Below are positions 1 to 56,400 of a stretch of 64,000 nt of DNA, piece by piece. Origin of the DNA: Dermatophagoides farinae (Eukaryota; Arthropoda; Arachnida; Sarcoptiformes; Pyroglyphidae). The position numbers and the translations under genes were made by a program. The notes under the pieces are model-generated. The model was not told the origin of the DNA and did not search any database. It saw only the letters and a list, made by a program, of their open reading frames with translations. Each line of letters begins with the position of its first letter. Position 1 is the stretch's first letter. The DNA is taken from NCBI RefSeq assembly GCF_024713945.1, contig NC_134680.1, positions 6,507,501-6,571,500 on the forward strand. Direction: 5' to 3'.

Positions 1-1
1 A

Positions 2-112
2 TCTACACAAAAAGCATCGAAAACCTCGCCATCTCGATCATCGGCTGAAATCAATACATCAAAATCATCGGTAATAGTTGAGAAAAATGAAAAATCCAAA
101 AAACAAGATTAA
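2..112 (+). CDS. C-terminal end of an upstream gene (partial), possibly a fourth member of the membrane-protein array
   Basis: One frame is open from base 2 to a TAA at 110-112 and encodes 36 residues rich in Ser, Lys, Thr and Asn (it begins STQKASKTSPSRSS and ends EKSKKQD). The other two forward frames are less convincing; one closes at a TGA near base 46. The composition resembles the Ser/Lys/Asn-rich cytoplasmic tail of the third array member (3,153-4,517). The next gene starts only 110 bp downstream on the same strand, as in the rest of the array. Membership in the family is inference: no membrane segment or conserved cysteine is inside the window. It could be the end of an unrelated gene. 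Confidence 0.55.
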   Translation, partial: STQKASKTSPSRSSAEINTSKSSVIVEKNEKSKKQD

Positions 113-222: not shown

Positions 223-1587
223 ATGATAATAATACGGTGGTGGTGGTTGTTTCTGTTGCCACTGCTGCTGCGGATATCGAAACATTCTAATTCCAAAATT
301 CTTCTTGATCAACAACAATCATTTCGTTCTGATTTATCATCATCATCATCATCACCACAATCATTATGGTTTCGTAATGATTCATTGGGCACGACAATTG
401 AATGTGGAACAAACTATCAAATGGTTGGCCTATCAATTGTTGATGGTTATATTTTTCAATTTCTACACAATTGTAGTGTAATCATTTATCCACCAAATGA
501 TGATGATTCGCACATCATCAATGATGGTGAAGAATTATCGTTGACCAATGGTCGTTTATATGGATTCAATAAAATGTTGCCAGAAAATCTGACAAAATTG
601 TTTTGTATCAATCAACAGCAGCAGCAAAAGAAATTTGGTTATTCATTGAATCGTAAATCAAAAAATATGCTCATTTTACATTATTGGTCATCGAAACAAT
701 CAATGCAAACAACAACACAAATCGATTATTTACAATTGATCATAAGGAATTCATTTTATTCATTAAAACAAGAAAATTATGAATCAAACAACAACCAGGA
801 AGTACATTTTTTTATGATCAATAATGATGGCAGATCAACATTGTTCATCACGAATGAATCTAATGATAATAAAAAGATTCATCATCAATACGGAATAATA
901 AGCAATCCATTGAAAACGAAAAAACAAAAAATTGGCTATTTTTGCCTGATAACGTCATCTGATGGCAAACAACAAAATCATTCATATCATTCATCGATCA
1001 CCATTCAATTACAATCAGAACCATGTACATCGAATTGGCAATTAATGAATGAATTATTCGCCGATATTGATTTTGGTTTCACTTGTGGAGAAAAATTATT
1101 TCTAATCACCAGCAAACAAATGGAATTTTTCATGCTGATTTCACAAAGAAAAATGTTGACAAAATGGAATCAAATTTTCACCATTCAAATGGCAACATTT
1201 GACGATGTTTTCATTTGTAATGATTGGAATGTTCATCATATCAACACGAACAAGCGATGGAATAAAACATCGGCAACAATGATCACTACTACTGGAATGC
1301 AGCAGAAATTGATTAATCATTGGAAAATGGTCGCAATCGTTTTGATGATATTCATTTTTACATCATTATTCGCTATATTCTTATACGGTTGTTTTGTGGC
1401 CCATTGTCGTAAACGTAAAATTCTATATGTGATGGTTTCATCGCCATCATCACCAACAGGGTGGACAACGATTCCATCAATCGATGATTATTCATATAGT
1501 AATCGAAACAAAAGAATGAATCAAAAACTACTGGATAACCACCGTCAACAACAACAACAATATCGTCGTGTACGAGAAAAATATTGA
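223..1587 (+). CDS. Type I membrane protein of an unrecognised six-cysteine ectodomain family, member A
   Basis: Single-exon gene for 454 residues; I do not recognise the family. Seen: a hydrophobic N-terminal signal (WWWLFLLPLLL, about residues 6-16), a Ser-rich linker, an ectodomain to about residue 367, one transmembrane helix (about 369-395) and a basic Gln/Ser tail of about 55 residues starting CRKRK. Family blocks in order: ECGTNYQMVGLSIVDGYIFQF, NCSVIIYPP, LFCINQ, FFMINNDG, GYFCLI, EPCTSNW, EKLFLITSKQ, DVFICND. The six shared cysteines sit in these blocks, with an extra one in FTCGEK. Several N-x-S/T sites suggest glycosylation, so a cell-surface or endomembrane location is likely. The start is the ATG at 223; an overlapping out-of-frame ATG lies 7 bp upstream (216). 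AATAAA follows at 1,651. Of the three tandem copies this is the most diverged. Confidence 0.85.
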   Translation: MIIIRWWWLFLLPLLLRISKHSNSKILLDQQQSFRSDLSSSSSSPQSLWFRNDSLGTTIECGTNYQMVGLSIVDGYIFQFLHNCSVIIYPPNDDDSHIINDGEELSLTNGRLYGFNKMLPENLTKLFCINQQQQQKKFGYSLNRKSKNMLILHYWSSKQSMQTTTQIDYLQLIIRNSFYSLKQENYESNNNQEVHFFMINNDGRSTLFITNESNDNKKIHHQYGIISNPLKTKKQKIGYFCLITSSDGKQQNHSYHSSITIQLQSEPCTSNWQLMNELFADIDFGFTCGEKLFLITSKQMEFFMLISQRKMLTKWNQIFTIQMATFDDVFICNDWNVHHINTNKRWNKTSATMITTTGMQQKLINHWKMVAIVLMIFIFTSLFAIFLYGCFVAHCRKRKILYVMVSSPSSPTGWTTIPSIDDYSYSNRNKRMNQKLLDNHRQQQQQYRRVREKY

Positions 1588-1650
1588 TTGATCGAAAATT
1601 GAATTTTTTTAAAAAAAAAACACATGTAATTTAATTTCAACATTTTCGTA

Positions 1651-1656
1651 AATAAA
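1651..1656 (+). terminator. Polyadenylation signal of membrane-protein gene A
   Basis: AATAAA lies 64 bp after the TGA of the 223-1,587 gene and 85 bp before the next ATG, so transcripts of the tandem genes can end separately. Confidence 0.6.
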
Positions 1657-1740
1657 AAGTGTTAGTTTTCCTTTCAGTGTAGAATTCGAATTTTATGTTT
1701 TTTAATGGTCTAGTTTTTCTGTCAACGAATCTCAAATTGA

Positions 1741-3033
1741 ATGATGAAAAAAACTGCCAACATTTCCATGTTCATTATATTGTTATTGTTGATAATTATA
1801 CAAGAATCTTTTGCTGATTCCAAGTCCATATGGTTTGCTGATATTGCCAATTCTAAAATCCACGTTGATTGTGGTCTGGATTATGATATATTTGGCTTGT
1901 CCATAATCGATGATTATCTGTATCAATTTGAAAAATGTTCGGTCATCATTTATCCACCACCATTGCAAAAATATTTAATACACAATGATGATATACAATG
2001 GCAACAATTGTTATTGGCAAATGGTTATCGTTTTGGATTTGATCAAATTCGATTGTCATTCAATGATACGTTTTGTGAATGGGCCGATCAATCATCATTG
2101 ATGGAACCAATGTATTCATTGATACGGTTAAAATATCCGGGTCTACATTACAATAATCACATATTATTGTATTTAATATCGAAATATCAAAAAAATTCCA
2201 TTGAATATTATGTACATGATTCGAATATAAATTCAAACATTCATTTAACACGAAATCATAGAAATCCAAATATCCACTATATAATGGTCAATAATGATGG
2301 ACATGCGTTCATCATACACAATGATTATCATATGAATGATGATGATCAATCCAATGATGATAGTCAAGGTTCACAATATCAACTGATGAATGATCCATCC
2401 ATTTGGAAAGATAAAACAATAGGTTTTCTTTGCATTGGTGAATCTAAAAATCTAAAACAACAAAACGACAATAATGGTGGTGATAATCATCTTTGGATTT
2501 GTTTACAACGTAATCCATGTGTAACATGGCGTGAAACACGTACATTACTGGAATCGATTAATTTATCATTTTCGATGTCGGGAAAATTATATCTAATTTC
2601 AAAACAAAAAAAACAAGTGTTAATTACGGATCTAAAATTATTATCCAGTGTAGTAGAATTGGTAAACAAACCGGAAAATGATACTGAACATTTTTCATTG
2701 ATAATCAGATCATTGACGGATTTTATCGTTTGTAAAGAATCCGATAGTACAAAATTTCTAAACAATGGAAATAAAACAGCAGCAACAACAACATCGAAAA
2801 CGACGATAATAAAAAAATCAAATGTCATAAGAATCTCAAACATCATCGTGATTCTTGTGTTGGTGTCGTTTTTCATATGGATGATCGTTCATGTTATACG
2901 TAAAAGAAAGAAAACAAAAAATCAGCAACAGATGAAAAACAAAGACGTCAGTGCAACAACAACAACACCAACAACAAATGATACTGGTAACAATCTTTTC
3001 GTACTTTCAAAAACAATTCGAAAATTGAATTAA
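1741..3033 (+). CDS. Type I membrane protein of the six-cysteine ectodomain family, member B
   Basis: Single-exon gene, 430 residues, tandem copy of the neighbours. Seen: a signal peptide (FIILLLLIIIQESFA, residues about 11-25), an ectodomain to about residue 365, a transmembrane helix about 367-388 (NIIVILVLVSFFIWMIVHVI) and a Lys/Thr-rich tail of about 40 residues. Family blocks: DCGLDYDIFGLSIIDDYLYQF, KCSVIIYPP, TFCEWA, HYIMVNNDG, GFLCIGE, NPCVTWRETRTLLESI, GKLYLISKQKKQVLI, SLTDFIVCKE. It is closest to member C downstream; NPC-TWR, LYLISKQK and DFI-C are nearly identical. One extra cysteine is present in WICLQ. Two Met codons open the frame (1,741 and 1,744) and either leaves the signal peptide intact. 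The function is unknown; cell-surface receptor or adhesion roles are only guesses from topology. Confidence 0.85.
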   Translation: MMKKTANISMFIILLLLIIIQESFADSKSIWFADIANSKIHVDCGLDYDIFGLSIIDDYLYQFEKCSVIIYPPPLQKYLIHNDDIQWQQLLLANGYRFGFDQIRLSFNDTFCEWADQSSLMEPMYSLIRLKYPGLHYNNHILLYLISKYQKNSIEYYVHDSNINSNIHLTRNHRNPNIHYIMVNNDGHAFIIHNDYHMNDDDQSNDDSQGSQYQLMNDPSIWKDKTIGFLCIGESKNLKQQNDNNGGDNHLWICLQRNPCVTWRETRTLLESINLSFSMSGKLYLISKQKKQVLITDLKLLSSVVELVNKPENDTEHFSLIIRSLTDFIVCKESDSTKFLNNGNKTAATTTSKTTIIKKSNVIRISNIIVILVLVSFFIWMIVHVIRKRKKTKNQQQMKNKDVSATTTTPTTNDTGNNLFVLSKTIRKLN

Positions 3034-3059
3034 AGTAAAAAAAAAATTTTCTGTTCACG

Positions 3060-3065
3060 AATAAA
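3060..3065 (+). terminator. Polyadenylation signal of membrane-protein gene B
   Basis: AATAAA begins 26 bp after the TAA of member B and lies 88 bp before the ATG of member C; the intergenic space is among the shortest in the window. Confidence 0.55.
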
Positions 3066-3152
3066 AATTTAAATTTAAATTTATTGCAAATTTTTCATCA
3101 AATTTTGTTTTACTTTTACTGTTTTTTTTTGTGGTGGAAAAAATCAATTTTG

Positions 3153-4517
3153 ATGATTTTCTTCAAAATTTCAGCCACCAACATCATCGTAATAATAATA
3201 TTGCTGCTATTTCAATCCTCATCATTGACATTGGGGTCGATATGGTTTCCCGTGATCACTTATCATGGTCACATTTATTGTGGTCTTGATTATGGCATCA
3301 ACGGTATTTCAATTGTTGATGATTATCTATATCAATTTGTAAATTGTTCGGTCATCATTTATCCACCGCCCATAATAAGACGTTTCAATATTTATAACAG
3401 ACAATTTATGCTAGATAATGGTTATCAATATGAATTTGAAAAAATACACCCAGATTTAAAACGTTCTGTTTGTACTATGCAATTATTATCATCATCGACA
3501 ACAACTTATTCATTAACACGTTTACGACGTCCAGGTGTTAATTATATTGATGGTCATATTGTATTGTTTATATTGACAAAATATGGTGGTCATTCATATG
3601 ATTATTATGCACATGATTCACAAACAAATATGCTTGTACGGCCAAAAAAACGTCGTGAATATCGAAATCCAAATATTCATTTGATAATGATAAATAATCA
3701 TAATGATGGAAAACAATTTCTCATTCATAATGATTATCATTCCATCAATGATGACGATGATCATGAAAGTCAAGGTCATCAATATCAGATGATAATGGAC
3801 ACAATATTTTTTGATGGTAATCCATTGGGATTTTTATGCATAAAATCCAATGATATGAATGATAATAGTGGTATGATCAATCTACAACAGAATCCATGTA
3901 AAACATGGCGACAGACTGGCCCATTACTGCGAACAATTGATCAATCAATCACATATTCTGGACAATTGTATTTGATTTCGAAACAAAAACAACAAGTTTT
4001 ATTCTTTGATCAAGAATTGTTAAAAAATATTTCAAAAGAATTTCCATTGTCAATAAAATCTTTATCAGATTTTATTATCTGTAAATTTCGTCCAAATTCC
4101 AATAAACAACCGGATGAAACAATGAATGCAACAACGATATTGACAGAAATCGAAACAGAAACCGAAACAACAACAAATAAATGGAGAATATCGACGATAA
4201 TCATGATTGTTTTCGTATTTATTGTCCTTTGTTTATGGATCGTTTATCATATGATGATTGTTCGTCGTCGTCGTCGTCGTAATAAAAAACGAACAAATTC
4301 CAAAATTGCTGAAAATTCAAAAAAATCAATCAGTATTACGGATAAGAACAGCGAAAACATCATGAATAAAGCCATTGCAAATAAGATTATTGTTCAGCTA
4401 ACACCAATGATGAAAAAATATTTTACAACAACAACAAGTATAACAACCCGAAGTGATAGCAGTAGTAGTAATACAACAACTTTGAATAAAACTTCACCAA
4501 TAATTAAAAAACGTTAA
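3153..4517 (+). CDS. Type I membrane protein of the six-cysteine ectodomain family, member C
   Basis: Single-exon gene. The frame opens at 3,084 without an ATG; the first ATG is at 3,153 and is followed at once by a textbook signal peptide (IIVIIILLLFQSSSLTLG), so I place the start there (454 residues). The ectodomain has exactly the six family cysteines: YCGLDY, NCSVIIYPP, SVCTMQ, GFLCIK, NPCKTWRQT, DFIICK. Other blocks are GISIVDDYLYQF, IHLIMIN, and GQLYLISKQKQQVL. The transmembrane helix is about residues 347-370 (IIMIVFVFIVLCLWIVYHMM), followed by an unusually basic stop-transfer (VRRRRRRNKKR) and an approximately 80-residue Ser/Thr/Asn/Lys tail, the longest of the family. It is convergent with GPATCH11, 86 bp between stop codons. 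Confidence 0.85.
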   Translation: MIFFKISATNIIVIIILLLFQSSSLTLGSIWFPVITYHGHIYCGLDYGINGISIVDDYLYQFVNCSVIIYPPPIIRRFNIYNRQFMLDNGYQYEFEKIHPDLKRSVCTMQLLSSSTTTYSLTRLRRPGVNYIDGHIVLFILTKYGGHSYDYYAHDSQTNMLVRPKKRREYRNPNIHLIMINNHNDGKQFLIHNDYHSINDDDDHESQGHQYQMIMDTIFFDGNPLGFLCIKSNDMNDNSGMINLQQNPCKTWRQTGPLLRTIDQSITYSGQLYLISKQKQQVLFFDQELLKNISKEFPLSIKSLSDFIICKFRPNSNKQPDETMNATTILTEIETETETTTNKWRISTIIMIVFVFIVLCLWIVYHMMIVRRRRRRNKKRTNSKIAENSKKSISITDKNSENIMNKAIANKIIVQLTPMMKKYFTTTTSITTRSDSSSSNTTTLNKTSPIIKKR

Positions 4518-4591: not shown

Positions 4592-4597
4592 AATAAA
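4592..4597 (+). terminator. Polyadenylation signal of membrane-protein gene C
   Basis: AATAAA 75 bp after the TAA of member C and 7 bp before the stop codon of the convergent GPATCH11 gene, so the two 3' ends must overlap. Confidence 0.5.
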
Positions 4598-4603
4598 AAA
4601 AAA

Positions 4604-5610
4604 TCAATGCAATTGTCGTGTATTGCCAGGACAATTATCGATGAGATCAACATTTGAATCATAACGACAGCCACACCAAAGACAATAAAAATATTCTGAA
4701 CGAACATAATGATCCAGTTGTTCTAATCGTTCTTGATAATCAATTTCATTCTCATCATCTTCATCATCCTCGTCTTCATCATCATTTTTTTCATCTTCAT
4801 TTTCTTCGTCATCATTTTTCGCTCTAAGAGCAGCTAAAAATTCTTTAGGCCAATACCATTCTTCTTGTGGTGGTGGTGGTGGTGACCCAGTGATTGATTC
4901 GTTCGATTGATGATCTAGATTATAACAAATTTTTTGTAATGAAAAATAATCTTTTTTCGCCAATAATTTTTCCGATTTTTCCACACGATAACGAAGAAAT
5001 TTATCTTGATCAATTTGATCGAAATTTCGTTTGTTATCTTTATTTATTGATTCTGATTTCAAGCGTTTATTTCGCACTGATGATTCATGTCCAAGACCTT
5101 TACGGCCAATTCGTAGTTCAATATCGATTGGTCGTCGTTCCATTATTAATTGTTCAACGGTTTTTCGTTTTAAATTCGTTTCTTGATCACATGATGATGA
5201 CGAACCAATCTTATCATTTGTTTTTGTCATCATTTTCTGTAATAAACGAAATCCTTTATTCTCTGGATCCAATAATGGTTTCGAAAGGCCGGCCTGTCGT
5301 TTTTCTTCTTCCATTGCTTTTATTATTTGTTTAGATTTTGGTTGACATTCCATACGCCGTTTATATCTTTCATGTTCATATTTTTGTTTATGACTATGTA
5401 ATAATGATGTTTTTTGGCTAGAAAGTAAAAAAAAATTAGCAAATTGTCAAGATGAATCGATGATGTTTACCTCGAATTATCATTGATTAGAAATTTATCT
5501 GACATATAATCATCATCATCATCATCGTCGCCGTTGTCGCTGGGGGCGGCATCATGTTTTTTGTTATCAACACCAACAACAAATTTACTCGTTTTCGATG
5601 AAATATTCAT
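4604..5610 (-). CDS. GPATCH11: G-patch domain-containing protein 11 homologue (two exons), with a degenerate G-patch
   Basis: Two coding exons: 5,610-5,471 and 5,417-4,604, separated by a 53-bp GT-AG intron (5,470-5,418); 317 residues. Recognised by order of motifs: acidic N-terminus ending in DYMSDKF (about 35-41), ENKGFRLLQKM (about 99-109) at the head of the G-patch, RPIDIELRIGRKGLGHE (about 142-158), an acidic Asp/Glu run (about 248-272), and a C-terminal DUF4187 module with YCLWCGCRYDS and NCPG (about 290-311). GPATCH11 proteins are nuclear and associated with spliceosomal or kinetochore functions; G-patches activate DEAH-box helicases. Here the central G-patch glycines after LLQKM are mostly replaced (MTKTNDKIGSSSS), although flanking blocks are intact. 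Divergent from the large RCC1-repeat gene (382 bp between starts), convergent with membrane-protein gene C. Confidence 0.9.
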
Positions 5611-5992: not shown

Positions 5993-8900
5993 ATGGATAT
6001 ATTTCAAAAACGGCAATTTTTTCAATTAATTCCAAATGATGATAATCAAGAATGTTTCGACCAAAAATCAATTGGAATTGAATTGGCAACATATAGTCAT
6101 GTTGTTGATAATCGTCATTTCCATGAAAATGAACTTGGTGGCCAAAGAATTCATTCCGAACGTAATCTTGTACTCTATACAAATGATTATCGATTACATC
6201 TGTTTCAATATGGTTCATTCATTGATTTGAATCAATCAACGAACCAATCGAATAATGATGACGATGATGATGATGGAAAAGCGAAAAAATGGCGTCATTG
6301 GATCATACCGTTGGATTCGAAAAAAGGCCGTATCGTATCAATGTGTATGGATCAAAGTGGTGAACAATTATTAGCCATTACAAATGAATCAATCATCTAT
6401 GTGATACCATTTTATTTTATCACTTATTATGACCAATCGATCGATATGTATAGAACTGTGATTGAAAAAGATGCTAGTCTACGAATGAATTGCTGTAATA
6501 ATAAAACAATCGTCGAACCAACTTCAATTGTATGGTGGCAACGTAATGAACGTTATGTACAACAACGTTTATCCATCGCTGTGATTGGTACAAAACGTGG
6601 ACAAATATCAATGATAGATCTGGATACTGATCAGCAATTTAATCGCTATTCTGTACCATTACCGATTGAATCATTGAATATTTATGATGAAATGTATAAT
6701 CGATCATTATTGATAACATGTGCACAAGGAAAACAATATCAATTAATATTGGAAGAATTTCGTACCTCAACATCATCATTTTCATCGAATCAACATCAAC
6801 AATTATCAACGACAATTGAACATTGTGAGCCATCAATTCATTGTTTATCGCCAGCAACAGCAACAACGACAACAAAAAACATGACATCATCGACACCGTT
6901 GTCAAAATTATCTGGATTCTTTACATCACGGTCATCATCATCGAAAGAATCGATGACTAAAACATCGATAAAAAATCAAACTTCAGGATTACTTTCCGGT
7001 TTTAATAATTATTATCTTTCCTGTTTATTGAATTTGCCATTTGAAAATGAAAATGATGTATTGCTTGGTCGAATCACCGGTAATCCATCGAATACTGAAG
7101 ATGCTGACGGTGATGATGATGATGATGATGATTCATTAACAACCACAAAACCACAATTGATTACATTTAATAATAATGAATCGATTGTTTTACCAATTAG
7201 CAGTAAATCAACTGATAATGATGTATTTTCATTCAATGTTGATGATTTAATTGTACCGTTGATGCAAACCGCTAGTCATCAACCACAACAACAGCAGCAG
7301 CAACAACAACAACAATCTAGCCATCAAAATAATTGCGTGAAAATGGCAATTTATCCACCAAGAAATTTAAATTCCAAGACCACAAACAACAACAACAACA
7401 ATATCTATGTTGTTAAATATCAAAATTGTGCCAAATTAAAATTAAGTCAAACTTTATCATCATCATCATCATCTAATATTACCACTACAACAACAACAAC
7501 AACAGGAAATGAAGCCGATTTTTCCAATGATTCTGATTCTTCATCATCATCATCACCATCACAAGATTTAGATTTTCTTATAATATCAAAAAAGTCTTCC
7601 AATAGTTTAGATAATTTTTGTAATATATCTATTCATAATAATCAAATGTTGTTGGAATTGTATGAATTTCCATGGCAAAAATTTTGTACAAAAACAATTC
7701 TACTTTCATCGGCAAGATTATTTTCAATTTCATTAATGAATTCCGATACCGCTATTGGTGATGATCATGATGATGATCATGGTTCATCCACCACCAAGAA
7801 TAATTTATTACGAATAATCGATTGTTCATATCGATTTCTTATGCTTGTATTTTCTAATCGTCTATCATTGATATCGAAAACATTTTCTGAACAATCAAAT
7901 AAATCACATCGTACGATTAGTACCGGTAGTGTTGGTGGTGTCCGTGGTAGTAGTATCACTTCTGGTTCACCAAGATCACCATTATTATTGAAACGTAGTG
8001 ATTCAAGTGGACATCGAAGATCACCATCATCAAGGAATTTTCAATCAAATGGCAATAAATTTGGTGGTGGATCATTTCGAAGAAAATTACCAGGTTCATC
8101 ACGAACAACAACACCTCGATCAATATCCATGTCAAACATTTCGAATTCAATGTCAACTAATTGTTCTGCGATTGCTGAATTTAGATTCGATGAATATGAG
8201 AATAAATCAAATGAAATAATCGATGTATTTCTGGCTAATCAACAACAATGTACACATGGTATTAGTATACGTGATTATCTTTATTCAAAATTATCGATGG
8301 AAATTGCAGATCAACAACAACAACAATTGGATCATCAAGAAAGATATCTGATTGAATTACTTTCATCCACCGATCTGGATCAAGCTACCATTCAATTGGA
8401 TGAAGAATTCTTGGTGGTAACTAAATATTCTGTTTATATAATTGAATCCAAGGAAAAGTCTTTTGGTCGTATATTTCATTCAGAAATTTTATCTTTTTTA
8501 CATCATAATCAAGAAGAAGAAGGCTATTATCAAGATGGTGATCTTATAAATCGTGCTAAATTTTTAGTCGATTGTTTTAGTCCATCATCATCAGCATCAA
8601 TGGTGTATCATCATCGTTCAAGTTTGTATAATAAAACAAGCTGTTCATCAATCGATTCCCCGTCATTGAATCATCAATTAAATCCATCAACAATGGTAAT
8701 GATACCAAGTCAATCGTGGCAATTATGGTTATGTCGTTCAGCAATGTTATTAATGAATCAAATATTTGATGATAATGAACAACTTTGTTGTTTATCACAA
8801 AATGAACGTATTCGAATTGTATCGTTATTAGCGGAAAATACGAAACAATCAAACGATACAATCGATTGTACTTTTCATCTGAAACAATGGATTCAAAATC

Positions 8901-11900
8901 GAATGAATCAAATATTTCGATTACTTGAATTATGTCGTTGTCCAAAACGTCGTGTTATAACAGCATTGAATGTATTCAGATTTTGGTCTCTTTCCATTGG
9001 TCAAATACGGAAATTTTTTCATACACGAATCCTTTTTGAATTGAATGATGATGAACGAAATTATCTTTCATGGCAATTATTTGAAGCATTATTGGCCATT
9101 TATCAATTTCATCATCATTCTAGTCATGATGACCAAGAAAAATCATCTAGCAATAATGAAAAATCAACTTCATGTAGTGAACTTTATGAATATTTCTACA
9201 ATTATCGCCAATATTATAATCATCAATTAGTATTACGTCGATTAATCGATTTAAATCTTTATAAAATGAGTGAATATGTAGCAAGATTACATGGTGATTA
9301 TCTTTATTTAATTTATTTTATACTTCAATATAAATGTATGACGATGATGACAATGTTGGATGATCAACTTTCAAATTCAGATCGTCATTGTCGTCATCAG
9401 ATTCTTCGATTATTAACATCAAAGCATGTTACATATGCATTGATTCTAAGTACAGAATTTATTCATCATCATCATCATCATTCCAATTGTTTGATTACGT
9501 CAAATTGTATGGTCGGTGAATGTCGTTCAATTCGTTTGATTGAACGTTATCTGCAATTTTTATTCAGTCAATTACCACAATTATCATTAAGATTTCTTCG
9601 ACGTTCTACAAAAATTTTCGATCCAAGAAGATTAGCTGTACGTTTATTGATAAATCAAACATTATTTTATTGTAATCAAACATATCTTTGTAATACTGAT
9701 AAACGTGATGATGACGATGATGATGATAATGATGATGGACATCTGGATCATCATGATTCAGGTGATGTTCATATGATGAATGATTCTTTGTCCGAATCAG
9801 AATGTTCAAGTCTCATTACTACGAATGGAAAATTACGTAAAAGTTTATTGCCAATTAAACGTCGTGATTTATTGAATATGGAATTATTTTTAGAATCATT
9901 ATGTTTAAAAAAATTGACAACAAAATCTGAATCATCATATGATTGGTCATTCATACATACAGTTATCGGATTTATGCCAAAACATTTAAAAATTTATGAA
10001 CAAAAACTTGATGAACATTATCGCAGACAAAAATCTCATCAAGAATTATCATTGTGTCCGAAAACGACATATTTTGATCATCATATAGTTGCTGGTACTC
10101 ATTGTTCATTGATATTTGATCATCGTCAATATTGTTTATGGGGTCGATTTGATTATACATTCACCAATTCTGAACGTTTGGAACAAATCTTTTCATCATT
10201 CGATGATCAACAACGTAGCATAGCAGATGATCGAATACCACCACCATCAATCAAAACGAATCGATTATTAAAACCACAATTGAATCGTTTCTTTTCAACA
10301 ATCATTAATGATCCAATACGCTCCATATCGATTGGTTATCAACATATGATGATTTTAACTGATAATGGTATTTATGGACTTGGTTCATCTGCATTTGGAC
10401 AACTTGGATTAGGATCCGAAGTTTTACAAACACGTTATCCAACATTATTGGATTTTGGTCATGATATTCAGGATGAACGAAAAAAAATTTGGAAAATTGT
10501 ATGTGGATCATATCATACACTGTTGTTATCAAATGATGGTCATCTTTATTCATTTGGTTGGTCATTACACGGTCAACTTGGTCATGGTACATTGATCGAA
10601 GATCAATTTGAACCACGATTAGTGAGATATTTTATTGATACGATAAATGTATCGATTGCTGATGTGGCTGCTGGTTATGCACATACAGCCGGTAAGTTGA
10701 TTGAAATTTTTCATTTTTTGTTTTGGAACTAATTAATTTTCCCGAATTTTAGCCTTAACAACTACAGGTGATTTATACATGTTTGGTCAAAATTGTTATG
10801 GACAATTAGGCGTGGAACCAGCTGGATGTAATGGAAATAAATTTTTCATTCCACAAAAATTCACATTAATTTCTGGTCCAATACGAATGATTTGTTGTGG
10901 TCCATTTCATACGGTTGTTATTGCTGTATCTGATGAATCAGAATCATCACTAATTAGTGAAAAACTTTATTGTTGGGGTATTGATCCCAAAACATGGCGG
11001 TTAAAAATGCGTGCTGATCGTGCTGCATGGACTAATAATCAACGTAATATGAATATTGTTGTCATCTGTAAAAATCAAACCGTGGATTATTCAAAGATAC
11101 GTGAAATAAATTTGGAAAAATTACCACCTGGAAGTTGTATACAGAAAATGGCAGCCGGTCAATCGCATACATTATTGTTGACTGATCAAGGTTTAATCTA
11201 TACCTTCGGTAATGGACGTGATGGACAATTGGGTCTGTTGAAACAATCATCATTGGAAGCCGAATTTCAAGCACAACCTGTATCGATAAATTGTCAGGAT
11301 GATGATCATGACGCTGATGAATATTATCAACAAAATCATTTTATCGATATTGCATGTGGTTCATTTCATTCATTAGCCATTGATTTCGATGGTAATGTTT
11401 GGGGTTGGGGCCAAAATTCAAATGGACAACTTTTTGATGGACAATCAAATACAATGACTACCACTACTGCAACATCATCAGGTGATTGTGATGATTTAAC
11501 TGTAACATTATCACATGATGGCCATGGTAGTATTGGCAATGATTCACCGCGAAGATATGAATCGAGACATATTACAATTAATTTGAATTCTTCTTCTTCT
11601 TCTTCTTCAACCTCATCAAATCAAATGATTTTGGCATCTAGTGGTGGTTCACCAAAACATAATCATTGTCAACCATCAATTCTGTTTTGCATATCAAATA
11701 TAATGGAAGCGCATGATCAAAATTTCAATACATTTGATTATGATAATTTTACTGGTTGGCAAATACCAATCGATATTGATGATGATCGTCAATCGATTTT
11801 AAACAAGCCATTGAGATTGCAAAGAAAAATTCTTTTAACCATCCTGCATAATCGTCATGATTTAAATATCAATTCATTGATTCGAAGGTAAATCTTTCAT

Positions 11901-33260: not shown

Positions 33261-34667
33261 ATGTGGCCATTTTTACATTCACAATCATTGATGATCACGA
33301 TGATTATTATTCTGTATCATCAATTGAATTTCATACAAACATTAGTACATTATGTTCGTAAAGATAATGGTCAAAATTATTCATATAATGATTTTAGCCA
33401 CCTTTCTGGCTGTGATGGTCCAGTATCGATGAAATTTTTTATCGATAAATTATTATCGATGGCCATTATTGATGATACATTGTATATTTATCAAATGGAT
33501 CATATTATCGGCATTTATCCGGGCATATCATGGCGTTTTTCGCCACAATTATCCGGTATCTATCTAATGGACGGTATTTATCATGATAATCACCGTTATT
33601 ATCCAACAATAGTTGATGAATGGCCATTGGATCGAATTGTTAATGAAATTTTTAATCCATTATTTAATGTTGATTCATTTGTGAAACTTGTTGAAGGTGA
33701 TTTGTCTGAATTCAATCAAATAGTTCCTACATTGTGGCCAAAAACAATAACGAGAATGCGCAATGATGTTAGAGTGACAATTACACGATCAGATCGATTG
33801 GATAATGATCAACAACAACAACAATTATCATCATTATCTATGAATCAATCTGGTTGGTTATATTTATCCAAATATTATACCGATGATTATATGATACATT
33901 TTTGGCTACGTAATAAACAGACCAATACTGGTTTCAAACATTATATGTATTATGAACATGAACATGAAGAATCAATCACTTTTGGTGAGCTACGTAGTCC
34001 TGATGATGAAAAATTCAATCTAATCACAATGAATATTGATGGTGAATTCTATGCACTGGTTATCGCATTGAACCCGTATGGCCAAAAAGGTGTCTATAAA
34101 GTACGAACATATCGTGGATCACCACGTCTGAACGAACCATATGGTGAAATTTGTCAGAAAAACAATCCGGATTCAGAAATTATTTATTTGAAATTAAATC
34201 TGGATAAACAATGTGAACATTTGACAGCAATGACATTGTTTGAAAATATTGAATTCGGTCTAACTATTAACGATGATCATATTTATTTTATTTCCATTGA
34301 TGCAGAAATTTTGTTTCGTGTAAACAAATCCATTCTGGCCGCCGTCGAGATGGCCGAAACGGCATTTGTGATTGAAAGATTGGAATTTTTACGATTTTTC
34401 CTATGCTTTTGGCCCACACGTTGGCCATTGCCGGGACTATCATTACAATCAATCGAAATGGTAAACGATAGTTTTGTACCGAAATTTTGGCTCCGTCAAC
34501 ATTTCGCCAAGATCGATAATATCATAGTCATATTGATCATAATAAAATTTATGGCCATCTCATTATATATGTTGTATGTTTGCGGTGTACGATTGCCTGA
34601 AGAACTGCTGTTGTCAACATTATCGACAAGATCATTTGAATGGATCACCACCACCGCACATCATTAA
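33261..34667 (+). CDS. Diverged, isolated member D of the cysteine-ectodomain membrane-protein family
   Basis: Single-exon gene of 468 residues; the first ATG is at 33,261, followed by a signal peptide (LMITMIIILYHQLNFIQTLV). It aligns block by block with array members A-C: AIIDDTLYIYQMDHIIGIYP with their SI-DDYLYQF--CSVIIYPP; NLITMNIDGEFY with IMINN-DG; EICQKN; KQCEHLTAMTLFENIEFGL with NPC-TWR-T-LL-I; DDHIYFISIDAEIL with G-LYLISKQK-QVL; and LEFLRFFLCFW with SL-DFI-C. A transmembrane helix is at about 420-443, but the tail is short (about 25 residues) and not basic. Two of the six family cysteines, those of CSVIIYPP and the following FC block, are both absent. Located about 29 kb from the array in repeat-rich DNA. 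Function unknown. AATAAA at 34,732. Confidence 0.85.
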   Translation: MWPFLHSQSLMITMIIILYHQLNFIQTLVHYVRKDNGQNYSYNDFSHLSGCDGPVSMKFFIDKLLSMAIIDDTLYIYQMDHIIGIYPGISWRFSPQLSGIYLMDGIYHDNHRYYPTIVDEWPLDRIVNEIFNPLFNVDSFVKLVEGDLSEFNQIVPTLWPKTITRMRNDVRVTITRSDRLDNDQQQQQLSSLSMNQSGWLYLSKYYTDDYMIHFWLRNKQTNTGFKHYMYYEHEHEESITFGELRSPDDEKFNLITMNIDGEFYALVIALNPYGQKGVYKVRTYRGSPRLNEPYGEICQKNNPDSEIIYLKLNLDKQCEHLTAMTLFENIEFGLTINDDHIYFISIDAEILFRVNKSILAAVEMAETAFVIERLEFLRFFLCFWPTRWPLPGLSLQSIEMVNDSFVPKFWLRQHFAKIDNIIVILIIIKFMAISLYMLYVCGVRLPEELLLSTLSTRSFEWITTTAHH

Positions 34668-36606: not shown

Positions 36607-38393
36607 ATGAATGAAGAAAAATCATTGAAACAACAACAACAACAACAACAGCATCAGCAACCAACAAATAATGATGATCAGAAATGGAAACGACATCAAT
36701 TTAAGAATTTGAGACAAAAAAATAATCCCAATCAATCAATGATAATGATTGATATGACAGGAAATATTGAAAATCTAGATGAACCGGATGATGATACAAA
36801 TGAAATAACATCCATATTGACAACCGCTACGACCACTGCCAAAATGATGATGTTACAACAACAACAGCAACAACATCAACAACAGCCACAATTGATATCC
36901 GATTCAACAACATTAGAATCAACTTCCGATGTTAATTTTGGCGCCACATCACCAATACCAACATCAACGGCAACAACACAGCAACGATTATATAATAATC
37001 GTTTACAACAACATCCACCACCACCATTACGATTGAAAAAAATGTCACCAACATTTCAAATGTATTCCAGTGGTACAGCCATTAGACGTACATTTTCCAT
37101 ACATTATGATCAAATGATTGATCCATCAATTAATAATAGTGGTGGTAGTGGTAGTGGTAGTTATTCCACAACAACAAGTGGGAGTGGTGGTGGTGGTGTT
37201 AATGATTGTAGTTCAATTGATGAATTTATTTCATCACCAGATTTATTATCATCATCATCATCGTCAGCTGCTGCTGCTGCTGCTGCCACCACATTATCAT
37301 TACCAAATGTAAATAATAGTGGTGATTATCGTAATCAAAAATCATCGACAATAATCAAATGTCCATCATTACCAAATTCACCATTACCAAAATCATTTAC
37401 ATTGAAAATGGCAACAAATACTACTACGACTACGACTACAACGTCAACGTCAACAACCACAACTACGACTGGTAAACAACGTCGTTATCGTCTTACAAAA
37501 CGTCGTACAATGCCTGGTCGATCAAATTCAGTACCATTTCGTCCGGAAATTGAACAAAATATTAAAAATGTTGATGATGGAGATGATGATGATTCACATT
37601 GTTCACAGACAACAACAACAACATCATCAATGAATGCAACAACAACATCGCCATCCACGCCAAGATCAATTGATACACCTGGATCGGCAACAAGTACCGG
37701 TAGTAGTACATCATCGAATACAAGTTTACGAAAATTCACATATGGATCAATGGAAACAACATCATTTTTTCATAAACGTTTCAATCAAACAATCAGTTTT
37801 CTGCAACGACAAAATAGTTCAGAAGAAGCAATTAACGAACAACAACAACATCGGCTACAATCATCACCATCACCATCACCGACAGCAGCAGCGTCAACAA
37901 CAACGACAACAACAACAACAACAACAAATATATTACGTTCACCATTACGATCAAATCGTTTTCTACAATTTTCACATCATAAATCCAATTCATTACCGGC
38001 AAATGATCCAACAACTACGACTACTACTTCTGCTATTACCACTACGATTGCTACAACCACAGCGATTTCCGATTTACAGCAACATCAACAACAATCAATG
38101 ATGATGGCAAATTTATCTAAAACAAATTCCACTGAAAATGTTCTGATTAAACAACGTACAATTGATTGTTCATCATTATCATCACAAATAACAAAGAATG
38201 ATGATGATGATGAATTAATGACGGTGGGAAAATCAGCAACAACAACAACAACAACAATGAGTTTAAATGTACCAAACATAATAATTATCGATAATGATGA
38301 TGATAATGATCAATTTGGTCTTGGTAATCTTGGTGTTTGTGATAATTTGTATGATGTTGGATCCAAAACATCATCGATCATCGTCGGTATTCG
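36607..38393 (+). CDS. Long low-complexity coding exon, Ser/Thr/Gln-rich, unknown protein (partial: 3' exons elsewhere)
   Basis: Encodes about 595 residues from the ATG at 36,607 to a consensus donor (CG followed by GTAAGT, 38,394). I do not recognise the protein. It has polyQ, polyT, polyA and Gly/Ser stretches and short non-repetitive islands: MSPTFQMYSSGTAIRRTFSI, CPSLPNSPLPKSFTLKM, RYRLTKRRTMPGRSNSVPF, SLRKFTYGSMETTSFFHKRF, NRFLQFSHHKSNSLP. RSNSVP fits the RSxSxP 14-3-3 mode I pattern and KSNSLP is close to it. A soluble, disordered, phospho-regulated N-terminal region is likely. The exon leaves two bases of a split codon, the same phase as the exons at 51,090 and 58,618, so it may be an alternative 5' exon of the kinase locus downstream. 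It may instead join a candidate terminal exon at 42,069. Confidence 0.75.
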
Positions 38394-39298
38394 GTAAGTG
38401 GTTCAAACAATTTTTTTTTTGAAGAATTTCATATTCCAAAACAAAAAAAAAACACTAAATTCCTCATGAAATTCGATATATCGATTATCACGATTGTTTT
38501 TGATTGACAATATCAAATTCGTGATGAGTTAGGGAATTTTTTCTCTCATTTCTAAACATCATACACTTTTTCCTCCCCATTCACTTCCCCCACACCATAT
38601 TTGATTTGTTTGTTTTCATCGTAACATCTTGTTCTCTTGTTTTCTTGTTGTTGTTGTATTGTCAATCGATTTATCGATTTTTATGAATAATATGAACAAC
38701 AACAAACAACAAACAGTCATAAATAAATGTTTGTAACACCCAAATATTTGAACAAAGCAAAGTCATCACTTTTTTTTTACAACAACAGAAACAAAAGCCG
38801 CAAGCCAAAATGTCACTCTATCTATGGATGATGATCATTGATACAACTTTAGTAGCAATCTGCAAAAAAAAAAAAAAAATTAACACCAGACTTTCAGCTC
38901 TGAAAATTTTAAACTTTTTTTTTCGTCCACTACAGTTTCGTAACACTGTTATTGCTATATATATACAGTGGAAATAGATAAGAGATTGTTGAACTCTTTT
39001 TCAATGACCAAATGAGCAAGCAAATAAAATGAAAATGGAAAAAAAAATAATAGAAACTTTGGTCAATCCAGATGGCCAGCGATTTTTTTCCATTTTAAAT
39101 TTTTAACATTTTCACGCATAGATTGTAAAGTTTCTGCGTGTGTGTGTGTGTATTCTGTGTGTTTTTATCGAGAAACACAAAAAAAACCAATTTCATTTTT
39201 GACGTTTTTATCTCCATTCCCATTTCCATTTCCATTTCATTGATGGACGGAAAAAAACTTTACTTTTAAATTTTTTTTGGAACGAAAATTCTGTGATT

Positions 39299-51089: not shown

Positions 51090-51811
51090 ATGCAACGAAT
51101 ACGTGATACATTTCGACGTCGTGGTGGTACCAGTGGTGGCGGTGGTAATGAACAACGACAATCACAAGCACCATCATCATCATCATCATCAATGATAATT
51201 GGTTCATCAGAATCATCATCAACATCATCGACATCATCACCGGCTGCTATAATTACTACAACTGGTTATTATTCTTCTACTACACCATCAACATTAGAAC
51301 AACAAGCTAAAGCGGAAGCTTGTAGACAACAGAATAGACATCGGCGTCAAATGTTATTGTTACAACAACAGCAACAACAACAACAAAAAATAATGAAAAA
51401 ACATCAACATTATCGTAATAATAGTGGAAGTAATGGTGGTGGTGGTGGTGGTGGAAGTTTATACGGTGGCGCTAATATCGGAAGCGGCGGAAATATTCAT
51501 ACTGGATTTAGTAGTAGTACAAATTCAACGCCAACACATTTAGCATCATCAATTGGATCTGGTCATCAATCATCATCACAACAATCATCACCATCACATT
51601 CATATACTGAAGAAATTATTACCGGAATTGGAAACACTGCTGGCACTACCAGTGGTGGTGGGGGTGGTGTTGGTGTTAGTAGTAGTGGTGGTGGTGGTGG
51701 CAGTGGTAATTTCTGGTGTAGTACAGGTGGTATATATCCATATGATATGACAATGACAATGATGATTGAACCAAGACGTGATGTACAACAAATTCAGCAA
51801 CAACAATATCG

Positions 51812-51842
<31 letters not shown>

Positions 51843-52550
51843 CCACAATCAACATCATCAACACCATCGCCATTAAAATTATCATCGTCATCAACAATAA
51901 TCGATAATGATGATGATGATAATCAGCATCATTTTAATTTTGAAATTAATAATGATCAATCAAATAGTAATAATAATGAAATGATGAAAACGTGCCTTAA
52001 TAATAATAATAAAACGAATGATGTAATAATTACTGGTGGTAGTGGTAATGATGGAACACTAATTATTGATGAATATCAACAAAAATCAATCAATACAAAG
52101 CAATTAATGGTGGATATTCAATCAACAAAAATCGATTATTCAACACCATCATCATCATTATCATTGCAGGTACCATATAATAAAATACGTTCAGCATCAT
52201 TTGATGATTCACGTCAAGTGGTTCCAAATGGTGGTGGCGGCTTATATGTACCACAAGATGCGCGTAATGTAAGATCAAAATCATTTGATCATTCAGCCAC
52301 TATGTATTCAAATGGAAATCCATCACAACCTCAGCCACCAATTCAACAGACAATGAATAAATCACAAACAATAATAAATTCTGATGTTACGAATCGTTCA
52401 ACAATGACAAGCAATATGATGATGAATAAACGTAGTGATTCTAATGCTTCCAATACATCAACAGCATCAACGGTGGTTACATTTTTAGATGTACCAAAAT
52501 GGAAATTATTGATACGACGATCATCAGCTACCAATAATCAACAACAACAG

Positions 52551-52588
<38 letters not shown>

Positions 52589-53455
52589 ACAACAACAACA
52601 ACAACAACAATCCTCAACAACAACAAATTCCAATTCTTCCAATGATTATTATTCGCAATTATCATTAATGTGTAAAGACTGTATTCACTGTCAATATATG
52701 TATGAATTGATTCAAGAACAACAACAACAGCTGCAGCAGCAGCAACAAAGATTGCCTACTGTTGATGAATACGGTAGATCAATATCACCACAATCAGAAT
52801 CGATTGATGATGATCAAAATTCACCATCATCAGACCATTCATCATATAATGATGATGATTCATCACAACAACAACAACAACAACAGCTACAACAGCAACA
52901 AATTCATCAAATTCTAACTACAGAATCATCAACGGATTCAAAACGTTCATTAGATCGTACCGAAAGTAATGGCACTGTTGGTCAATTAGAAGCAATGGAT
53001 GAATTTGATGTTGATGAATTTATTGAACCAATTGAAGGTCTACCAATTGTAACATTGTGTCCACCAGAATTATCAATAACTGATACTGCTACTACTAGTA
53101 CTGGCAGTAGTGGTGGTGTTAGTGGTGTTGGTGGTGATAGTAATTGTAATAATAATAATGATGGCTATAATATACAACAAATCAATAATGGTATCGATGA
53201 AGAAGATGATGATAATGGTTCCGGTATCACAGTGGTATCGTTAGAAGTACCTATAATGGGACAAAATTCATCAAAACAATCACGATCAGCATCAGTAGAT
53301 TCACCATATCTATTACAGGTGCCTAAACGTGATGATATTGAAGTTGGTGAAGGGCCACCAAAAGCTCGATCAAAATCAGTGGATATTGTATTGCCAACAC
53401 GACCAGGTGGTCCATATCTTTTGATACCACCACGACATCCACCAACAACAACAAA
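51090..53455 (+). CDS. rdgA: N-terminal exon of an RdgA-type (DGK zeta/iota class) diacylglycerol kinase (partial)
   Basis: Encodes about 788 residues from the ATG at 51,090 (in-frame TGA at 50,994 upstream) to a donor (AA followed by GTAAGT, 53,456). Identification rests on motifs shared with the long N-terminus of fly RdgA: MQRIRDTFRRRG at the start, repeated (L)xVP...RSxS(F/V)D units (RSASFDDSRQ about 366, VRSKSFDH about 394, LDVPKWKLLIRRSS about 461, RSASVDSPY about 732, ARSKSVDIVLPT about 759) and CKDCIHCQYMYE (about 528). RdgA phosphorylates diacylglycerol to phosphatidic acid in photoreceptor and neuronal phosphoinositide signalling. The C1 zinc fingers, catalytic domain and ankyrin repeats are not in the window and must be encoded downstream. 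Lineage-specific polyQ (24 Gln at about 484-507), poly-Gly and poly-Ser inserts inflate the exon. Confidence 0.75.
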
Positions 53456-56400
53456 GTAAGTTACATTTCAATGCACACACCTACACACAGTCATTAATTT
53501 ACAAATGACAGCGGAAAAGAAAATCATTTTTCAATTTACATGGAAAATTGTCTCGAACAATGCATGCGGAAATTATTTTGTTCATTTTAAAAATTTAATT
53601 CTCAAAAATCTTTCTACAGCAAACGTTATAATAGTGGGAATGAGAAAATTTCCCGAAATTAAAAAAAAAAATTTACATCAATATGACAGTTTGACTGGAA
53701 CATTTTTTCAATTTGTTTTTTTTCTGGTCGTGTCAATTTTGATATTTTTTAAATTTTTCTCCCTCACACACACACAAGTTATCATTTTCATGTGTAATCA
53801 CCAACCACGGATTGTCTTATAAATAATTCAAAAAATTTTTTTTTTTTTGTGTTTTTTTGTCATTTTTGATTCTTGAACATGACAAAAACAAAACAAAAAA
53901 AAAAATTCCATTGAAACAAAAAATATGTTCAATTTTTTTGACTGATTGAGAATCATAATTTTTTTTTCGAGTACATTTATTCCCGGGAAAATTTTTCCCA
54001 TTGAAAATTGACAGCAGTGTGAAGGAACAAAAAAAAAAATTCTGTTCATTTGGACATCTCATTGGTTTGACATCGTCATCATTTTTTCATTAGAATTGCC
54101 AATCATATGATAATGTGGTATTTTTTTTTTGTTTGTTGACACTAGAAACGATTGCAGATCGTGTGGTCAGGTTTTTGAATTGAAAAAAATTTTTTTCCCA
54201 TTTTTTTTCGTTGAAAATCGGATTATGGTCATTCTGTGTTCTTGTGCGTGTGGCCATCCATTTAAAAAAAATCCTATAAAAAGTAACCAATGAATATCCA
54301 ATAACAACAACAAAAACACCGCTAATATGAATGAATTTGGCCAAGATTTGGCCAAAATTTAAATTCCATGTATACATTTCCGGATAAATTTATTCAAATT
54401 TTTTTTTATATATATATATTCAATGCTCAAAGAGAAAAAAAAGAGATTTAAAAGGAAAAATAATCGCCCATTTTGCAAACAACCATTCTGCTGACCAACA
54501 ACAACGGCAAAATAAATTCAAAATTGAAAAAAAATAAATGATAATGGATGATCAATCACTATTTTCATTCATTTGTAATGTAAATGAAAATTCAAACGAT
54601 AATCTTGCACAAGTGATAATGTTTTTTTTTGTTTGAATGAATTAATGAATTTTGAAAAAAAAGAGAGAAAAAGACATTAATTTTAATCATCAAGAGTGTG
54701 GATGCTTGTGTCATAACAACAACAACAATGATGATGAGATAATCAACTGAAAATTTTGAAAGAATGGGAAAAAATAATGAATTCAAAACAAACAAACAAA
54801 CAAACAGACAAGAATCGATTGAAGTTGTTTATGAAAGGAATCTGGTGGAAAAATGTACCAGAAATGAAAATGAAAAAAAAAATTCTCTGCATTTTTAATG
54901 AGCGCAAATGAATGATTTGAAAATGGAAATTTAATTTTTGCATTAAAATTAATTTTTTTTTCTATTTTTTGGTTGAATGCAATTAATTCTCGTTTGACCT
55001 TTTCTATAGAACAAAAAAAAATTTCCGAAAAGTTTTTTCCCGAAAACTTTTCCTCTTGTCATAGATGAACAGACAGACAAACAAACAAACAAACAAAAAA
55101 GTTTTCCATTCACGAATAACTTTTTTTTTCAATTGTCATTCTGCATTCGTAAATAATTCATGCAGCAATCAATTTTTTTAGTCTTCCATTTCCAATGAAT
55201 TTTCTTTCTTTCTATGTATCGAAATTCTTTCAATTCAATAAATTTTCAAGAATATGTATGGTAATTATTCACAATCACTACACGATTCAATAATTTTGAT
55301 TTATATAAATATCAGGAAAGGAAAAAAATTTTCAATTTTTTCAAACAAACGAATGAAAAAAAAAACCAAAATTCTTCAAGTCACCAGGTTTTTTTTTCTC
55401 ATTTTGATTCTAGGGAATTTGATGAACATTGATGATGGTGTAGTGAAAAAAATTAACGGGAGAAAAAGAGAAAGCCAAATGCAATTCGGGAATTTCAAAA
55501 TTCCCGAATTGCCAAGATTATGTGTGTAATTTTTGGAACGAAAAAAAAAATCATTCGTCGTCATCATCATCGTTGTATTTAATGATGATGATGACGATGA
55601 TGATGATGATATTAAAAATTAATTTGAAACAAATGACAACAAAAGACAACGCCCATTTATGAATGATAAGAAATAGGTATCGCTAGCGGTTTATGTTTCT
55701 ATTTGTGTGTGTATATGTGTGTTTGTGGAAATCATCATCATTTCACAATGACAATTTCACCGACATTGATGATGATGATGATGATGACGATGATGATGGA
55801 TTGCATGATATTGCAATTTTATTTCTCATTTTTTTCCCAATAAATAATTCACTGTCATTTATATGATTATGATGACGGTGATGATGATGATGATAATTTG
55901 ATGATTTCCGTTTTTGGATTTTGTTTTGCTTTGTTTTTTGGAGTACTTTTTTTTATCGATGATAAAATTAACTTAATGATTGATCAATAATAAAACACAG
56001 GTAAAATGTCAAATGTCAACTGTAATAAATGGATAGAAAGAAAAAAAAACTTGACCAAATAAAACAGTGGACGCCCATTTTTTTTCCAGTTTTCCAAGAA
56101 TATTCTACTTTCAATTTTTCAATAGAAAATCAAAGAAAATTGGCTTGACGAGTAAATTGTCACGTGTGTGTTTGTGTGTGTGTGTGTATTTGTGAGGTAA
56201 CGAAAAACAAAAACAAAAAACCAAAAAAAAAAAATTTGCACATAAATTACACCCATTAAAAACGGGTGGAAACCAGAAATTTTTTTTTTCGTTTTGTTTT
56301 GTTTTTTTTGTTGATTTAGAATTTCAAATTCAATGATTCCGTTCATATACACTATGACGTTTTCATTGTTTTTGTTTTGATTCCCTCCTCAAATCGTCGT

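Follow-up and report, generated by a model that had tools for sequence, protein, structure and literature searches.

Divergent tandem genes for type I membrane proteins in Dermatophagoides farinae, candidate members of the mite 4BetaP family

Genes A, B and C and their divergence

The window analysed here is a 64,000-nucleotide stretch of the genome of the mite Dermatophagoides farinae (NC_134680.1, positions 6,507,501 to 6,571,500 of the forward strand). Near its start lie three genes, termed A, B and C, that encode related type I membrane proteins, each with one extracellular domain:

Gene A, 223-1587, plus strand: open reading frame of 454 amino acids, intronless, type I membrane protein
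Ectodomain of A as aligned, 367-1230, plus strand
Gene B, 1741-3033, plus strand: open reading frame of 430 amino acids, intronless, type I membrane protein
Ectodomain of B as aligned, 1831-2745, plus strand
Gene C, 3153-4517, plus strand: open reading frame of 454 amino acids, intronless, type I membrane protein
Ectodomain of C as aligned, 3243-4094, plus strand

The genes run head to tail, with 153 bp from the stop codon of A to the start of B and 119 bp from B to C; frames and spacing are as given in the original prediction, which was made from the letters of this DNA before any search. A search of the complete 62.4-Mb genome with B recovered C at E 8.1e-81 (44% identity) and A at E 3.1e-25 (29%), a relatedness far beyond chance. 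The signal peptide and single membrane helix proposed as common to all three are likewise found: hydropathy windows mark a hydrophobic N-terminal stretch (residues 1-19 in A, 6-24 in B, 2-20 in C) and one C-terminal membrane stretch (369-387, 356-374 and 346-364), followed by basic, low-complexity cytoplasmic tails of 67 (A), 44 (B) and 88 (C) residues. Among the 18 full-length members of the larger family described below, the N-terminal stretch lies above the same threshold in 13 and the C-terminal stretch is present in 16; three more rows outside these 18 are fragments.

The analysis supports a tandem, divergent family of type I membrane proteins, and the tandem origin of A, B and C is clear; in a 22-row tree they group together with support 97/96, and D and the clusters on contig C9 fall apart from them, mostly on long branches with weakly supported placing. 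The duplications had been called recent, which the coding sequences do not support. Because B and C, the closest pair, have 44% of residues in common over 396 codons and differ at 23 of the 42 fourfold sites found in codons with no other change, the duplications are, by this sequence measure, apparently not recent.

Further members and the cysteine core

The family had been described as one of three genes, and it proves to be larger. Two further members reach into the window:

Gene D, 3′ end, 1-112, plus strand: fourth member, body upstream of the window, last codon ending at 109, stop codon at 110-112
Gene E, 33261-34667, plus strand: 468 amino acids, a divergent member standing alone some 29 kb downstream from C

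Gene D lies directly upstream, as an open frame of 615 amino acids (L048:2265-4109) that the A/B/C ectodomain profile finds at E 5.5e-12; window bases 2-112 hold its final codons and stop. Gene E was not listed by the seed profile and was found by the iterated one at E 1.1e-10 among 2574 frames; it has relatives in the genome at C4:6583859 (E 6.8e-9) and C4:4192480 (E 2.7e-4). The three-ectodomain profile, run on the frames of regions from earlier matches, gave eleven further frames at E < 1e-5. These include gene D and the cut start of a gene, and one of them has its opposite end in a frame that scored 0.0024.

In total the genome holds 41 or more related loci; the figure is a minimum, as scoring was confined to the best candidates. 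This count combines 25 loci of the branch of A to E, accepted at E <= 0.01 or by profile in genome-wide protein searches with eight members and with the seed and iterated profiles, and 16 of the 17 rows of a search for an intron-containing branch. The 25 loci are distributed over contigs C4 (nine), C9 (eight), C6 (five), C2 (two) and C10 (one), and for 22 of them a single frame through the ectodomain was read. Two were counted by profile only, C6:4702.5 kb (protein search 0.058, profile 9.4e-6) and C9:490.2 kb; the two-part frame at C9:488.4-490.0 kb was counted once, and the weak match C2:3573605 (0.0049) was included. Left out were C10:2671135 (0.0195), C1:7557273 (0.064), C1:8193473 (0.0568) and other rows above 0.01, many of them on the membrane or tail region. 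These loci, at least 41 in one mite genome, have neither an assigned function nor a model in the Pfam copy searched.

The intron-containing branch is best seen at C3:6.40 Mb, where five tandem genes occupy a 10-kb stretch (L042:766-9329) and carry the ectodomain in an exon of its own. GTAAGT follows the ectodomain in all five, with a membrane-helix stretch further on, and the single gene whose upstream part was read as well has an intron before the ectodomain too. This branch was joined to that of A to E because of its iterated-profile scores (0.09-0.66 with the seed profile, 5.6e-4 to 5.2e-3 at the next iteration) and of a profile comparison that aligned 78 C-terminal columns of the two branches at a probability of 91.3% and E 9.6e-7 (reversed control 0.1%), the remainder of the domain being unaligned. 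Used as query, one of the C3 genes matched 16 loci on C2, C3, C7 and C8 with E <= 0.01, its own among them.

Some members depart from the usual gene structure. Two single-frame members on the minus strand, L034:4081-5253 and L034:5504-6589, end soon after the last cysteine without a membrane stretch; possibly they are secreted versions, or have their membrane part in another exon. Another member is split over the overlapping frames L044:4391-5194 and L044:5172-6020, and may reflect a disrupted copy, an intron or a fault in the assembly.

Six ectodomain cysteines are invariant across A (residues 61/84/128/241/268/332), B (44/66/112/231/260/331) and C (43/65/107/229/249/310), with one additional cysteine in A (C288) and one in B (C254). 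The six fixed positions first noted thus stand for these three genes; across 22 aligned ectodomains the core narrows to four. The first and last cysteines occur in 19 and 21 of the 22 rows, and the two inner ones, in GYLC and preceding the LL...YGF block, in 17 rows each. Both inner cysteines are missing from the same five C9 rows, with 20 rows having a residue in each of the two columns; none of the four core cysteines remains in one C9 row, C9x6, the row that has lost both the first and the last, and gene E, scored as lacking the first, carries one a few residues earlier. This pattern of presence and joint loss suggests disulfides between the first and last and between the two inner cysteines. 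The third pair, CSVII...C, lines up across A, B and C, and no column there reaches cysteine in four of the 22 rows; the common core is therefore of four cysteines, and the third pair is a local elaboration particular to A to C. The conserved motif blocks listed with the original prediction match exactly mainly in B and C, except that C has VC for FC; A departs from several of them (GYFCL, LFLITSKQ, DVFIC, PCTSNW). Annotators can use as a signature CG...G.SI...YQF...VIIY; G[YF][LF]C; YGF...LYLIS; DFFxC, together with the four-cysteine core.

Probable relation to the 4BetaP family and proposed role

We found no credible match to a named domain, as the first reading of the sequence had stated. 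Pfam placed no family over its cut-off in A to C nor in 10 further members, and in 18 ectodomains no family occurred in more than one; the best row, Cupin_2 (E 2.1e-4), was confined to one of the 18 and treated as chance. Rows for TMEM9, Rifin, Orf78, SARAF and the calsyntenin C-terminal family lay on or beside the membrane segment, all below cut-offs, and were set aside. Sequence search of the PDB gave nothing credible, only an Sqt1 chain at E 0.29 and a Fab heavy chain at E 0.96. Foldseek with a low-confidence model listed 511 rows at E <= 10, not one of which reached E <= 0.001, and given the confidence of that model the fold is not settled by it. Internal four-fold symmetry was compared with 200 column and 200 block shuffles, which gave no proof of it: the best self-match was equalled or exceeded in 11 and 45 of these respectively, the sum of the four best self-matches in 0 and 16, and the transitive triangle in 20 and 24. 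With the C ectodomain as sole query, which reaches close relatives only, there were seven pattern matches on viral contigs and 26 on prokaryotic ones, none of them confirmed.

The original prediction took the six-cysteine ectodomain for an unrecognised one; a family of the same layout has, however, been described in the sister species D. pteronyssinus. There a 2025 paper reports 4BetaP as a family not described before, with 119 genes or more that are expressed 2.7- to 429.7-fold more in males than in females and with a predicted four-bladed beta-propeller ectodomain (PMC12105342). The layout given is an N-terminal transmembrane or signal helix, an ectodomain without other recognised domain, one or more C-terminal transmembrane helices and a putatively disordered cytoplasmic tail of variable length, and one of the proteins is structurally similar to C. 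elegans Q22625 and Q19393, both germline-expressed (PMC12105342). A literature search on four-bladed beta-propeller, mite and male yielded this paper only, and among the matches listed for 4BetaP no other concerned mites; none of the other papers searched names Q22625 or Q19393.

A to C agree with 4BetaP in having an N-terminal helix, one extracellular domain without other recognised domain, a membrane helix and a variable tail, and in belonging to a large multigene family of the same genus. From the agreement in layout, gene number and genus, and in the lack of known domains, we infer that A to E are new D. farinae members of the published family, by likeness of layout and not of sequence or sex bias; the genes are real and their kind is probably not new. 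Two points differ from the layout described: two of the 18 full-length members have no C-terminal membrane stretch in frame, and one branch has an intron after the ectodomain exon, in five of the five genes looked at.

On balance we favour the view that A to E are members of this mite family and surface proteins, most likely binders in male reproduction; the fold prediction and the male expression are those of the D. pteronyssinus paper. Each protein would have a signal peptide, a mostly-beta, propeller-like domain of about 270-290 residues, one membrane helix and a tail that is short, basic and of low complexity, the domain being closed by a disulfide of the first and last cysteines and braced by the inner one. 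Most likely it would serve as a surface binder on male reproductive cells (sperm or gland), one face of the propeller touching a putative partner molecule during mating or fertilisation; copying in tandem, followed by rapid divergence, would diversify that face. Should the genes be male-specific in D. farinae too, comparison of the two Dermatophagoides species would test a propeller family as a fast-evolving means of reproductive recognition. A narrower version, which we regard as speculative and doubtful, is that these are mite-specific, still diversifying sperm-surface propeller receptors whose copies serve, during mating or fertilisation, as recognition tags specific to the species or the male, with sets that differ between D. 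farinae and D. pteronyssinus. If true, dust mites would become a model in which to study gamete recognition through a propeller family, one that is not known to have such a role.

Tandem arrays and strong divergence would suit any arms race, and the proteins could instead form a host-environment or immune surface family, with divergent type I receptors on gut cells or haemocytes whose variety is directed at microbes or at molecules from food. The NxS/T motifs (six, six and five in A, B and C, of which six, four and three lie between signal and membrane helix) are in keeping with such a surface family, which we nevertheless consider unlikely in view of the male bias reported for the family of the same layout (PMC12105342). 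It is quite unlikely, too, that A to C form a separate six-cysteine family resembling 4BetaP in layout only and having its own fold and function, as first proposed. In favour of such a family are the third cysteine pair and a likeness to the published genes that is so far one of layout; yet matches at E <= 0.01 or profiles link A to C with no fewer than 38 further loci, both remaining cysteine pairs recur in 17 to 21 of 22 rows, and it would be surprising for one genus to hold two unrelated families so alike in size and layout.

Hemopexin domain proteins (PF00045) were compared too. A four-bladed propeller is proposed here as in them, closure by the first and last cysteines (judged by position and co-loss only) and the strand motifs recall hemopexin domains, and seven hemopexin-fold chains stand among the VIA rows obtained with a weak structure model. 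No PF00045 row, however, was found by Pfam in any scanned member, and when profiles were compared, a hemopexin domain encoded in this genome gave probabilities of 0.1% for the single-exon branch and 1.4% for the intron branch (reversed controls 0.0% and 0.2%; the two halves of that hemopexin domain against each other, 97.8%). Between the outer cysteines lie 268-288 residues in A to C and about 200 in hemopexin domains. Membership was dropped on the Pfam and profile results, and a hemopexin-family propeller diverged past recognition is very improbable.

Transcript signals and neighbouring frames

AATAAA motifs follow each of the three genes; they are given by position only, the motif being frequent in DNA as AT-rich as this:

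AATAAA 3′ of gene A, 1651-1656, plus strand
AATAAA 3′ of gene B, 3060-3065, plus strand
AATAAA 3′ of gene C, 4592-4597, plus strand

The motif after gene A is consistent with a separate transcript for A. A DUF4187 frame on the minus strand (4604-5353, E 1.9e-18), likely a GPATCH11-type gene, is convergent with C and separated from the stop codon of C by 86 bp. Two adjacent frames on the plus strand (5993-10732 and 10779-11891) both contain RCC1 repeats and are probably one large gene. Two further long frames on the plus strand, 36607-38397 (596 amino acids, very rich in simple repeats) and 51090-53459 (789 amino acids), have no Pfam match at E <= 0.001. Elsewhere in the genome, an exon at C1:893129-893452 encodes a stretch identical at 107 of 108 residues to the solved Der f 2 allergen, which points to D. 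farinae or a species very near it, and scores 241 bits with Der f 2 against 222 with Der p 2.
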